DNA of 36,710 bases from Clostridia bacterium (GTDB lineage: Bacteria; Bacillota; Clostridia; Oscillospirales; Acutalibacteraceae). A program made the position numbers and the translations under genes. Below the pieces are notes generated by a model, which searched no databases, was not told the DNA's origin, and saw nothing but the letters and a program-made list of their open reading frames with translations. The stretch covers positions 1 to 36,710 of the forward strand of contig JAFSDK010000067.1 of NCBI GenBank assembly GCA_017436255.1. The letters are read 5' to 3'. Each line of letters begins with the position of its first letter. Position 1 is the first letter of the stretch. This document shows, one piece after another, positions 786 to 6,168 of the stretch.

Positions 786-820
786 GTAATAGGTAAGAAG
801 TAAGAGGTAAGAAGTTAGCG
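786..820. repeat. 7-bp tandem repeat (GTAAGAR) between smpB and ssrA
   Basis: Units GTAATAG, GTAAGAA, GTAAGAG and GTAAGAA run head to tail from 786 to 813, with a degenerate fifth unit GTTAGCG. The repeat reaches the smpB stop codon (815-817) and ends about 10 bp from the tmRNA 5' end. No function is recognised. Confidence 0.7.
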
Positions 821-1273
821 ATTACTTTCTTTTATTGCGCGCTGAATATCACGATTTGCAGATTTTTGTGCTTCAACGGCACGCTTATCATAAAGTTTTT
901 TACCCTTACAAACGCCAAGTTGCACCTTTACAAGCGAACCCTTGAAATATAAAGATAAAGGAATTAAAGAGATGCCTTGTTGCTGAACGAGGCCAAGCAA
1001 ACGCATTGTTTCTTTTTTGTGAAGAAGCAGTTTGCGGTTTCTTGTAGGTGGCTTATTAAATATATTGCCCTGCTCATACGGACTTATGTGCATCTGCTTT
1101 ATAATCATTTCGCCGTCATCAACACTACACCAAGCATCTTTTAAATTGACGCCGCCGCGGCGGATTGATTTAATTTCGGTACCTGAAAGAGCAATGCCGG
1201 CTTCATAAGATTCAAGCACAAAATATTCGTGGAAGGCTTTTTTATTGGTAGTAATTGTTTTTGTGTTATCCAC
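815..1273 (-). CDS. smpB: SsrA-binding protein SmpB
   Basis: SmpB binds the tRNA-like part of tmRNA and is needed for trans-translation. The protein has the family blocks [44 protein letters not shown] and the C-terminal basic tail with [20 protein letters not shown]. The start is a GTG at 1273: AAAGGAGTG lies 8 bp upstream of it and gives 152 aa, the usual length. A longer frame begins at 1342 but would run through the promoter and the ribosome site. The gene sits directly upstream of ssrA, a common pairing in Firmicutes. Confidence 0.95.
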
Positions 1274-1313
1274 CGTTATCACTCCTTTTTTTAGTATTAT
1301 ATGGCGGGTAGAT

Positions 1314-1342
1314 AGTATAACACAAATTCCCCTTGAGGTCAA
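1314..1342 (-). promoter_or_regulatory. smpB promoter (TTGACC-17-TATACT)
   Basis: On the minus strand a -35 box TTGACC (1342-1337) and a -10 box TATACT (1319-1314) are separated by 17 bp and sit about 40 bp before the smpB GTG. The -35 box lies in the loop and stem of the hairpin at 1325-1350. Confidence 0.75.
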
Positions 1343-3368: not shown

Positions 3369-3426
3369 AAACATCACCATATTATATATAAAGATATGTT
3401 ACCACATTTGTTTTGTTTTGTCAAAA

Positions 3427-3481
3427 TGTAAATTTATGCATTTATGCGCATAATTATTCATAAAATGATGTAAATTATGCA
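3427..3481. promoter_or_regulatory. possible tandem ArgR boxes
   Basis: Three similar imperfect palindromes start at 3427 (TGTAAATTTATGCA), 3447 (CGCATAATTATTCA) and 3469 (TGTAAATTATGCA), spaced 20-22 bp, about two helical turns. They resemble the ARG-box consensus TGAATWWWWATTCA (about 7-8 of 10 fixed positions in the first two) and lie upstream of an amino-acid transporter promoter. ArgR family arginine repressors bind such paired boxes. The region is AT-rich, so chance similarity is possible. Confidence 0.35.
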
Positions 3482-3518
3482 TAAAATCAAAAAAATAAAA
3501 AATTTTTATGCAAGACAC

Positions 3519-3547
3519 TTGCATTTTTATGAAAGGTATGTTATAGT
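3519..3547 (+). promoter_or_regulatory. promoter of the ABC transporter operon
   Basis: A -35 box TTGCAT (3519-3524) and a -10 box TATAGT (3542-3547) are 17 bp apart. A strong ribosome site TAGGAGG follows at about 3569-3575, ahead of the ATG at 3583. Confidence 0.75.
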
Positions 3548-3582
3548 ATATGCACAATATTTTTTCTTAGGAGGAAAAAACA

Positions 3583-4431
3583 ATGAAAAAGATTTTAGCT
3601 TTATCAATGGCACTCTTAATGATAGTTGCTTGTTTTGCCGGTTGCGGTAACAAGGCAACTACTGCAAAGGTAAAAATTATCGACATCAACCTTACAGAAG
3701 AAGATTATGCTTTTGGTGTTGATAAGAATCAACCTGAACTTCTCGCAAAGGTAAACGAATTTGTTGCTAAGATTAAGAAAGACGGCACATTTGACACAAT
3801 TTGCGACAAGTATTTCGGCGACGGCGAACCCACAGCAGTTGTTTCGGCTAAAGAAGATGCTTCTAAAGAACAGCTCGTAGTTGCAACAAACGCACAGTTT
3901 GCACCTTTTGAGTACAAAGAGGGTGACAGCTACTATGGTATCGATATGGAAATCGCTAAGCTTTTAGCTGATTATCTTGGTCAGGAACTTGTTATTAAGG
4001 ATATGGAATTTGATGCTGTTTGCTTAACAGTTGGTCAGCACAAGTGCGATATCGCAATGGCAGGTCTTACAGTTAATGCTGAGAGAGAAGAGTACGTTAC
4101 ATTCTCAACTGCATACTACAAGGCTAACCAGAAGCTCATCGTTAAGGGTGACGACACAACATTCGATGCTTGCAAAACAACCGATGACGTTGTTGCAATT
4201 CTTAAGAGCTTTGATGAGAGCACCAAGATTGGTTACCAAAACGGTACAACCGGCGGCCTCTATGTAGAGGGCGACGCTGATTGGGGCTTCGATGGTTACA
4301 ACGTAGAAGGTAAGGGTTATGGTTCAGGTTCTTTGGCTGTTCAAGATCTTATCAATGGTAACATTAAGTACGTTATCATCGACTCTGACCCCGCTAAGTT
4401 TATTGTTGATGCTATAAACGAAGTTGCATAA
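3583..4431 (+). CDS. amino-acid ABC transporter substrate-binding lipoprotein, apparently circularly permuted
   Basis: This is a family-3 solute-binding lipoprotein that would deliver a polar amino acid to the permease encoded downstream. A signal peptide with lipobox (VACFAGC, Cys 21) anchors it outside the membrane. The family's usual N-terminal start (LVVATNAQFAPFEYKE) appears only at about residue 98, followed by the normal order: YGIDMEIAKLLADYLG, CDIAMAGLTVNAEREEYVTFS, IGYQNGTTGG and VIIDSDPAKFIVDAIN, where the protein stops. The segment that normally follows, LTEEDYAFGVDKNQPELL...FDTICDKYFG, is instead at residues 36-79, just after the lipobox. Joined end to start the order would be canonical, so this looks like a circular permutation, not a truncation. 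The ligand is unknown; a basic amino acid is possible if the upstream sites are ArgR boxes. Confidence 0.88.
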   Translation: MKKILALSMALLMIVACFAGCGNKATTAKVKIIDINLTEEDYAFGVDKNQPELLAKVNEFVAKIKKDGTFDTICDKYFGDGEPTAVVSAKEDASKEQLVVATNAQFAPFEYKEGDSYYGIDMEIAKLLADYLGQELVIKDMEFDAVCLTVGQHKCDIAMAGLTVNAEREEYVTFSTAYYKANQKLIVKGDDTTFDACKTTDDVVAILKSFDESTKIGYQNGTTGGLYVEGDADWGFDGYNVEGKGYGSGSLAVQDLINGNIKYVIIDSDPAKFIVDAINEVA

Positions 4432-4454: not shown

Positions 4455-4670
4455 CAATAACCTCACCCGACGGGTGTTGCGATTAGGGATTAAATGCCTT
4501 AAAATATAAATTTTTGTAGTCTAATGTGTTAAAAAGTCGTGGCACGCATCAGCGTTACCGCGACTTTTTGCCTGTTATACCACTAAAAATTTATTCTTTT
4601 AAGGTGCGGTGCAAATTTATCTGAAAAACCAATTAACCCCTAACCGCAGCACCCGTAAGTGAGGCTGTTG
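4455..4670. repeat. 216-bp foldback (long inverted repeat) element, MITE-like
   Basis: The whole gap between the binding-protein and permease genes is an imperfect palindrome. Left end CCTCAC...CGGGTGTTGCGATTAGGG (4461-4487) matches the reverse complement of the right end, which reads CCTCAC...CGGGTGCTGCGGTTAGGG (4663-4637). Further in, left CCTTAAAA-TATAAATTTTT (4497-4515) matches right CCTTAAAAGAATAAATTTTT read in reverse complement (4604-4585), and both arms end in AAAAAGTCG at the central hairpin (4531-4569). The right arm carries about 25 extra bases. Such full-length inverted repeats without a gene are typical of foldback MITEs. No clear target duplication was found, although TA dinucleotides flank both ends. 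Contains no ORF. Confidence 0.75.
4531..4569 (+). terminator. central hairpin of the foldback element, terminator-like
   Basis: AAAAAGTCG (4531-4539) pairs with CGACTTTTT (4561-4569), with GTGG/CCGC extension and an inner ACGC/GCGT stem, and it ends in five T. It could partly stop transcripts after the binding-protein gene, giving more binding protein than permease. The A-run on the opposite side makes it usable on both strands. Confidence 0.65.
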
Positions 4671-4691
4671 TATCTTTTAAGGAAAAAAGTT

Positions 4692-5402
4692 ATGGGTAAT
4701 TTTGGATTAAAAATTGAACGCTTTATTGAGGTTTTTATCGATAAAGGCGGTTACAAGGAAGTTTTAACAGGTCTTCAAAACACCTTACAAATTGCGGTTT
4801 TGGGCCTTGTTATCGGTATTGTTATCGGTACGCTTATTGCGGTTATAAGGGTGTTGCCTAAGTACAAACTGCTTCCGAGAATTTTGAATGGTATATGTAC
4901 ATTCTACGTTGCATTTTTCAGAGGTACACCTATGGTTGTGCAGCTACTTTTATCATATTACGTAGCACTACCACTGATGGGCATTAATCTGCCGTCAGTA
5001 ACGGTTGCAACAGCTGTGTTCGGACTAAATTCCGGCGCATACATATCTGAAATAATGCGCGGCGGCATTCTATCGGTTGATCCCGGTCAGATGGAAGGCG
5101 GCAGAGCAATGGGATTGCCGTTTTCTAAAACTATGCTATCTATCGTAATTCCGCAGGCCGTTAAAAATATTTTGCCTACACTTGGTAACGAGTTTATAAC
5201 CCTTATTAAAGAAACCTCAGTTGTAAGCTTTGTAGGCGCACTCGATTTATATGTTGCTTTCAACCGCATCGGTTCGAACAGTTACGAATTTATGGTACCT
5301 TATCTTGTTATGGCGCTAATCTACATTGTTCTTGTACTTATCATAAGCGGTCTTGTGAAGTTGATGGAAAGGAGTCTGAGAAGAAGTGATTCAGGTCGTT
5401 AA
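4692..5402 (+). CDS. amino-acid ABC transporter permease (HisM/GlnP type)
   Basis: This inner-membrane subunit would form the channel of a polar amino-acid importer. The first periplasmic-type block [20 protein letters not shown], the middle [16 protein letters not shown] and the EAA loop ([33 protein letters not shown]) are the standard family signature, with about five membrane segments. The start is the ATG at 4692, with AAGGA 8 bp ahead, giving 236 aa; the frame is open upstream to 4659 without a ribosome site. The ribosome site lies just outside the foldback repeat. Its end overlaps the ATPase gene by 17 bp, so the two are translationally coupled. Confidence 0.93.
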
Positions 5403-6168
5403 TCTTAAAAAATCTTTTGGCTCCTTAGAGGTGCTTAAGGGCATAAACATTAATATCAAAAAGGGCGAGAAGGTCGTTGTTATCGGTGCTTCAGGCTCGG
5501 GTAAATCAACGTTTTTGCGTTGCCTTAACTGTATGGAGGACCCAACGTCGGGTAACATTTTTTTCGGTGGTGTAGATATTGCCGATATGAAGGTTGATAT
5601 TAATATTCATCGTCAAAAGATGGGTATGGTATTCCAACATTTCAATCTCTTTAACAATAAAACGGTTATCCAAAATATTATGTTAGCGCCAATATATGTT
5701 GAGAAAAAGCGTATGCGCAAGCTTAAAATGAAAAATCCCAATGGTGAGGTTATTAAAACAACTAAGCAGATTAAAGAGGAAGCATATAAGAAGGCAATGG
5801 AACTGCTTGAAAGAATCGGCCTACAAGAAAAAGCGGACGCATATCCGTCACAACTGTCGGGCGGTCAAAAACAGCGTGTCGCCATTGTTAGAGCGTTGGC
5901 TATGAATCCCGACGTAATTCTTTTTGACGAACCAACAAGTGCACTTGATCCTGAAATGGTTGGCGAAGTTCTTGAACTTATGAAGGAACTTGCAGAATCC
6001 GGTATGACAATGGTTGTTGTAACGCACGAAATGGGATTTGCGCGTGAGGTTGCCGATAGAGTAATATTCGTTGACGAGGGTGTTATCGCTGAGGAGGCAC
6101 CACCCGAGGAATTTTTTGGTAACCCTAAATCCCCAAGGCTTAAAGAATTTTTATCAAAGGTATTATAG
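5386..6168 (+). CDS. amino-acid ABC transporter ATP-binding protein (GlnQ/HisP type)
   Basis: This cytoplasmic ATPase would power the importer. It has Walker [10 protein letters not shown] (about 34-42), Q-loop FQHFNLFNN, signature LSGGQKQR, Walker [16 protein letters not shown] and the switch His in [13 protein letters not shown] start at 5386 follows GGAAAGGAG by 11 bp. At 260 aa it is about 20 residues longer than the usual 240: a charged stretch ([20 protein letters not shown]) sits between the Q-loop and the signature. Variants with an insertion here occur in Clostridia, and their meaning is unknown. It is the last gene before a strong terminator. Confidence 0.95.

Follow-up and report, generated by a model that had tools for sequence, protein, structure and literature searches.

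A probable natural circular permutant of substrate-binding protein family 3 in Clostridia, and repeated changes of chain order among its relatives

The gene at positions 3583–4431 on the plus strand of the window, which here means the whole stretch of 36,710 nucleotides that was analysed, very probably encodes the binding lipoprotein of a polar-amino-acid ABC importer, and its sequence points to a natural circular permutant of substrate-binding protein (SBP) family 3. In the numbering of the window protein, the chain was divided into blocks A (residues 30–79), B (93–190), and C (191–277). Canonical relatives have the order B-C-A, and the window protein has the order A-B-C. Two further orders, C-A-B and C2-A-B-C1, were found in other genomes, and the order of the blocks changed repeatedly among these proteins.

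The gene and its neighbours

The gene lies upstream of two genes for importer subunits on the same strand:
3570–3574, plus strand: GGAGG, resembling a ribosome-binding site (sequence inspection).
3583–4431, plus strand: probable circularly permuted family-3 substrate-binding lipoprotein of 282 amino acids, P0001 (ORF, Pfam, PDB-sequence, and profile comparison).
3583–3645, plus strand: signal peptide with the lipobox, ending at Cys21 (sequence inspection).
4659–5402, plus strand: permease of an amino-acid ABC importer (BPD_transp_1 above the gathering score; TIGR01726 above its cut-off).
5386–6168, plus strand: ATP-binding subunit (ABC_tran above the gathering score).

The ORF of 3583–4431 ends with a stop codon immediately 3' of PAKFIVDAINEVA. 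In the Pfam scan, the window protein scored 110.9 bits against PF00497 (SBP family 3; gathering cut-off, 26.4 bits), and no type I family was matched. The lipobox cysteine, Cys21, was invariant in an alignment of 58 rows. The permease scored 84.9 bits against TIGR01726 (cut-off, 42.2 bits), and this match, with those to BPD_transp_1 and ABC_tran, assigned the neighbours to an importer of the amino-acid type; on inspection of the sequence, the ATG at 4692 may be its true start. For the ATP-binding subunit, the best NCBIfam match was the GlnQ model, under its cut-off. Upstream of the binding-protein gene, there was a terminator-like hairpin at 3508–3524, and a consensus scan of 3383–3583 gave no promoter-like site on the plus strand. 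Elsewhere in the window, the region of 429–775 and 815–1342 (both on the minus strand) held a tmRNA gene with the tag DKNTVALAA and an adjoining ORF which we take to be smpB-like.

Evidence for circular permutation

Comparison with PDB sequences by phmmer showed that residues 98–270 of the window protein matched 12–170 of 4zv1, and that residues 27–80 matched 180–233 of the same chain. Because the two matches were in swapped positions, the order of the window protein was assigned as A-B-C. No permuted chain was apparent among the PDB matches listed (60 of 94 and 60 of 119, judged from the best-stretch columns). A canonical profile of 238 positions was built from 51 canonical relatives. The single window protein scored 168 bits against this profile over positions 14–184, and the doubled sequence scored 208 bits over positions 14–236, whereas a control with a shuffled second copy scored 167 bits. 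The doubled protein also covered 13–250 of the 250 positions of NCBIfam TIGR01096 in a single stretch across the join, and 1–131 of the 132 positions of the short Pfam model. Doubling changed the scores of the 51 canonical proteins, the same proteins that had built the profile, by a median of −3 bits; the median change was +39 bits for 130 A-B-C loci (range, −3 to 69), +139 bits for 28 C-A-B loci (−2 to 161), and +68 bits for the three C2-A-B-C1 loci (−1 to 80). The window protein therefore differs from the canonical type II (cluster F) arrangement, in which the blocks run B-C-A and lobe 1 carries both termini, and the doubled-sequence tests placed it among the natural circular permutations of SBPs. 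A sequence-only reading of this DNA had proposed a circularly permuted family-3 SBP from which nothing was lost, and had named alignment of the doubled sequence to family-3 models as a check; the swapped PDB match, TIGR01096, and the gain over the profile bore this proposal out.

The blocks of the window protein were arranged as follows, with lobe limits taken from those given for GlnBP in the available part of PMC13229503:
3670–3819, plus strand: block A, residues 30–79; last strand of lobe 2, second hinge crossing, and closing part of lobe 1; found at the C-terminus of canonical relatives.
3820–3858, plus strand: linker, residues 80–92; ties A, the C-terminal end of the canonical chain, to B, its N-terminal end.
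3859–4152, plus strand: block B, residues 93–190; opening part of lobe 1, including Arg168, followed by the first hinge crossing; found at the N-terminus of canonical relatives.
4153–4428, plus strand: block C and tail, residues 191–282; lobe 2 with Asp267; ends at the point from which canonical relatives continue into block A.

The moved segment had been read as residues 36–79 and as the last strand and helix of lobe 1. Its position was broadly right, but the first residue of DYAFGV is 41 and not 36, and the block itself starts near residue 29; the segment does contain the end of lobe 1, but it includes the last strand of lobe 2 as well. Compared with the canonical model, about 12 residues were inserted at 190–213 (window positions 4150–4221). 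Within this region, Cys197 was nearly invariant in the clade of the window protein in the 58-row alignment. A disulfide bridge in this clade was considered and found to be unsupported on inspection, because relatives that lack Cys147 still keep Cys197.

Ligand site and presumed function

Arg168, Asp267, and Gly161 were identical in all 132 A-B-C loci, and position 163 was Thr in 128 of them and Ser in four. The equivalents of Arg168 and Asp267 were kept in 32 of 32 C-A-B loci, and among the 54 B-C-A loci the arginine was present in 52 and the aspartate in 53; these loci represented 112 distinct sequences of 132 for A-B-C, 30 of 32 for C-A-B, and 50 of 54 for B-C-A. We take Arg168 and Asp267 to be Arg75 and Asp157 of GlnBP, which presumably contact the alpha-amino-acid ligand. 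In 128 of the 132 A-B-C loci, a permease gene lay within reach and was read from the same strand. The simplest reading is that the A-B-C protein is probably an amino-acid binding lipoprotein with an altered chain order. Judging from the sequence, the window protein would adopt the usual two-lobe flytrap fold, bind an amino acid between its two lobes, and pass it to the permease for transport.

Frequency of the block orders

Of 60 related genomes, 53 had a match, and segment order assigned the 30 loci fetched from these genomes to A-B-C (13), B-C-A (10), and C-A-B (7). When one genome from each species was scanned, 392 stretches encoding a relative were found; the best 80 of these 392 were kept, and all 80 were A-B-C, so that the survey of homologs suggested by the earlier reading did recover the same order. 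By their record titles, the kept loci spanned Clostridia, Oscillospiraceae, Lachnospiraceae, Acetivibrio mesophilus, and others. Among 391 genomes of the class, A-B-C was present in at least 36, including that of the window, and C-A-B in at least 22; the order counts comprise only loci checked by segment order, and the class figures are lower bounds. Full-length coverage in tblastn was dropped as a count of order, as a plasmid protein of Vescimonas fastidiosa that covered 2–279 of the query was canonical by segment order. The fourth order, C2-A-B-C1, in which the chain is cut inside lobe 2 after GTTGD, occurred in three of 299 genomes of the phylum, all of one family (L151, L155, and L163 in G538, G719, and G673).

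Several gene arrangements were seen among these loci. In L020, L191, and L192, a C-A-B binding domain was fused straight to the permease, and the permease therefore hangs on lobe 2 and not on lobe 1. Two to four C-A-B domains and a permease were joined in one ORF of up to 1224 amino acids (L217, 617–4288; also L216, L218, and L222), and these arrays correspond, with a shift of phase, to tandem arrays of canonical order, for example L221 and the Enterococcus faecalis array L251. No C-A-B locus was found among viral contigs. The same arrangement, in which a canonical fusion of binding protein and permease comes after an A-B-C operon, was present on two contigs (L099 and L100) from a single genome record.

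Cut sites and lobe geometry

Positions at which the permuted chains open were mapped on the canonical profile; they are good to a few residues only, as the aligner prefers neighbouring model positions. The A-B-C chains opened at 184|185 in 105 of the 117 loci that were parsed (of 132; 15 were left unparsed) and at 187–189 in the other 12, and the 184|185 class included rows from all four A-B-C clades. The C-A-B chains opened at 112–116 in 24 of 27 parsed loci (of 32; five unparsed) and at 119–124 in three, and the C2-A-B-C1 chains opened at 143|144 in three of three. By phmmer, residues 3–121 of GlnBP (PDB ID: 1ggg) were aligned with residues 96–214 of the window protein, and residues 174–226 of 8eyz, whose numbering runs three ahead of 1ggg, with residues 28–80. 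The large domain of GlnBP is given as 5–84 and 186–224, and the small domain as 90–180, in the accessible text of PMC13229503. By mapping onto these domains, all three natural cut sites would lie in lobe 2 with both hinge crossings kept, and the A-B-C cut would fall between the last helix and the last strand of lobe 2. A cut at the hinge that leaves a single crossing was rejected on the same mapping to the domains in that part of PMC13229503, by which two crossings remain. The A-B-C chain would thus start with the last strand of lobe 2, cross to lobe 1, run through all of lobe 1 at once, cross back, and complete lobe 2. Lobe 1, which is split in canonical proteins, would become a continuous inserted lobe, and the termini and the lipid anchor would shift from lobe 1 to lobe 2. 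If there were eight independent events with random cuts, and lobe 2 made up about two fifths of the chain, the chance of all cuts falling in lobe 2 would be about 1e-3; this figure is rough, because the counts for the different orders are perhaps not separate, and because cuts within B could escape searches that start from intact B blocks.

Repeated changes of order

For phylogenetic trees, the blocks of each protein were re-joined in canonical order and linkers were removed; three ORFs with irregular block strings were left out, as were near-identical rows. On the tree of 89 rows, the four orders required 11 changes. A-B-C required four (bootstrap range, 4–4; four forced by the starred branches) and C-A-B six (range, 5–7; three forced), and C2-A-B-C1 formed a single clade. 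Seventeen long-branch rows were kept out of this careful tree and included in a quick tree of 106 rows, on which there were 12 changes in total. A single clade of all A-B-C rows, in which 22 rows were held together, was rejected by the AU test (p 6e-6), with a log-likelihood 154 lower. The tree of the neighbouring permease gave separate evidence: it required 18 changes of label, five for A-B-C (four forced) and 12 for C-A-B (two forced), on a quick tree in which 41 of 87 inner branches were weak. The canonical L198 lay next to or among A-B-C clade 2 on the trees of both the binding protein and the permease. These results showed that the order changed repeatedly. Repeated gain is the simplest reading, because the canonical order is usual in the family; the trees do not tell gain from loss, and fewer gains with reversals are possible.

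A young case within one genus

A-B-C clade 3 lay in the genus g117, in which 57 of 59 genomes had some match, 16 carried A-B-C, and at least 18 carried B-C-A (all order-checked). Proteins of canonical g117 genes were up to 84% identical to the permuted query on B-C and up to 86% on A. Among the loci with wider flanks, six of eight A-B-C loci and seven of nine B-C-A loci had upstream gene families in common, and the downstream families were common to the same loci except L299, where the contig ends; two A-B-C and two B-C-A loci sat in other surroundings. In five of five g117 pairs, A and B-C were swapped in position with 76–84% DNA identity, and the match was collinear downstream in all five pairs and upstream in four. 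Both members came from the shared locus in three of the pairs; of the others, L264 was compared with a narrower flank, and L252 was one of the two A-B-C loci that lie elsewhere. The linker between A and B in g117 read as the canonical tail (KYIP or KHIP), followed by about 15–25 more residues and then the leader of canonical proteins (FTT.E.G, ahead of KLIMATNA).

In a combined g117 tree of 35 rows, the canonical rows fell inside the A-B-C group. One A-B-C clade within the genus was compatible with the data (p 0.19). Nested genes of canonical order had a like signal peptide (L278–L282, L284, L285, and L255 against L252, L263, and L264). With a single A-B-C clade acceptable at this p value, a reversal of the circular permutation in g117 is no more than a possibility.

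Origin of the permuted order

The permuted order probably arose when two gene copies were fused in frame, head to tail, and the fusion was then trimmed at its two ends. In two of the four A-B-C clades, the former leader of the mature N-terminus still stands between A and B: linkers of clades 3 and 4 kept the canonical leader in five of five rows (shuffle p 0.022 or less), in a test of which a like form was passed by 32 of 54 canonical leaders as a control. In the clade of the window protein, likeness to the canonical leader at p 0.05 or below was found in none of five linker rows, and no intermediate form of this clade was seen. Counted by group, the rows with a leader remnant were 0 of 5 in A-B-C clade 1, 0 of 3 in clade 2, 0 of 8 in C-A-B, and 0 of 2 in C2-A-B-C1. 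A tandem duplication that then lost its outer parts, as the sequence-only reading had suggested, is supported by the linkers of two of the four clades, but the linker of the window's clade resembles no canonical leader; because of this, a duplication origin for that clade may be proposed by analogy only.

The same linkers bear on an alternative route, recombination between neighbouring paralogous SBP genes with no fused tandem intermediate. In its favour, genomes carry several SBP paralogs, and none of the 18 linker rows of A-B-C clades 1 and 2, C-A-B, and C2-A-B-C1 resembled a canonical leader at p 0.05 or below; against it are the canonical leader kept in clades 3 and 4, the existence of fused tandem B-C-A and C-A-B arrays, and the alignment of a tandem GlnPQ chain (6h30) across an A1-B2-C2 junction. 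We regard this route as rather unlikely. The two-piece matches alone could look alike if block A were an extra module added by partial duplication and the protein's own C-terminal part had simply been lost. This would leave unexplained the presence of one A block per A-B-C locus at the thresholds used, the seamless cut on the canonical model in the large majority of parsed loci, and the occurrence of the A block 3' in some species and 5' in others at one locus of g117, and it is very improbable. An artefact of assembly or binning, for which one could cite the word MAG in the titles of most loci and the 74 contigs of the window's genome, is hardly credible in view of orthologs in records titled neither MAG nor uncultured (L088 and L058), in the single-contig genomes G278, G249, and G403, and, nearly full-length and 52–96% identical, in 12 further genomes of the first 60.

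Discussion

No natural permutant of family 3 was found in searches of an open-access library of papers. The engineered case in this family, the sensor cpLAO-BP, reportedly follows Okada 2009. In the available part of PMC5087393, cpLAO-BP is described as binding lysine with a Kd of 107 uM, compared with 3 uM reported for the native protein. Like the window protein it belongs to type II (cluster F), and its old termini were joined by a short linker with a new cut near the hinge; unlike the window protein it is man-made and carries fluorescent proteins, and one of its interdomain linkers was deleted, whereas the natural cuts map inside lobe 2 with both crossings kept (PMC5087393, same passages). 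The parts of PMC10927120 and PMC6588880 that were available contained no case of a permuted binding protein, and the corresponding text of PMC7683729 only cites an engineered one among its references.

Natural permutations have been described in other SBP families. TpMglB-2 of Treponema pallidum is a naturally permuted glucose-binding lipoprotein, proposed as 'Type Ic', with relatives reported in Gram-positive gut bacteria, according to the accessible passages of PMC4990184. It resembles the window protein as a natural circular permutation of a lipoprotein SBP, but in those passages it has the type I (cluster B) sugar-binding fold, with the first three N-lobe strands placed near the C-terminus and a fourth crossing needed, whereas the window protein would stay at two by the mapping. 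CPSARST found circular-permutation relations among glycine-betaine binding proteins, molybdate-binding proteins, and CysB; these are likewise natural permutations between solute-binding proteins, but they lie outside family 3, have under 24% mutual identity, and were found by structure (PMC2395249, in the sections available). The earlier statement that no description of this form was known therefore holds for natural family-3 proteins within these searches, but not for natural cases in other families or engineered ones in family 3, which have been published in the passages cited above (PMC4990184, PMC2395249, and PMC5087393). GlnBP, LAO-BP, and canonical B-C-A relatives share with the window protein the same blocks, the ligand-site residues, and an operon with permease and ATPase. 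They differ in having the order B-C-A with the termini and anchor on lobe 1, where the window protein has A-B-C with these on lobe 2, by the lobe limits in the available text of PMC13229503.

What is unusual here is the recurrence at the same sites together with the case within one genus. In nature, circular permutation is as a rule inferred from proteins that are only distantly related. Because Pfam and NCBIfam models give partial, split matches for the window protein, a permuted protein can pass as an ordinary one. A broader interpretation, which we offer tentatively and consider doubtful as a whole, is that the chain order of family 3 in Clostridia is evolutionarily fluid, with at least three permuted orders, A-B-C reached repeatedly at the same cut, lobe 2 opened in every case found, flips at a single locus inside one genus, and perhaps returns to the old order. 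On this interpretation, a lobe-2 position of the anchor or of the permease fusion, in place of one on lobe 1, may have been selected through a changed opening, closing, or docking of the tethered protein. With canonical and permuted forms at one g117 locus in DNA blocks that are 76–84% identical, this genus gives direct access to the event itself, to its junctions, and to what it costs in function. The family-3 permutant built as a sensor bound its ligand more weakly than the native protein did, according to the available part of PMC5087393, and the natural versions display the cuts and linkers that evolution has kept.
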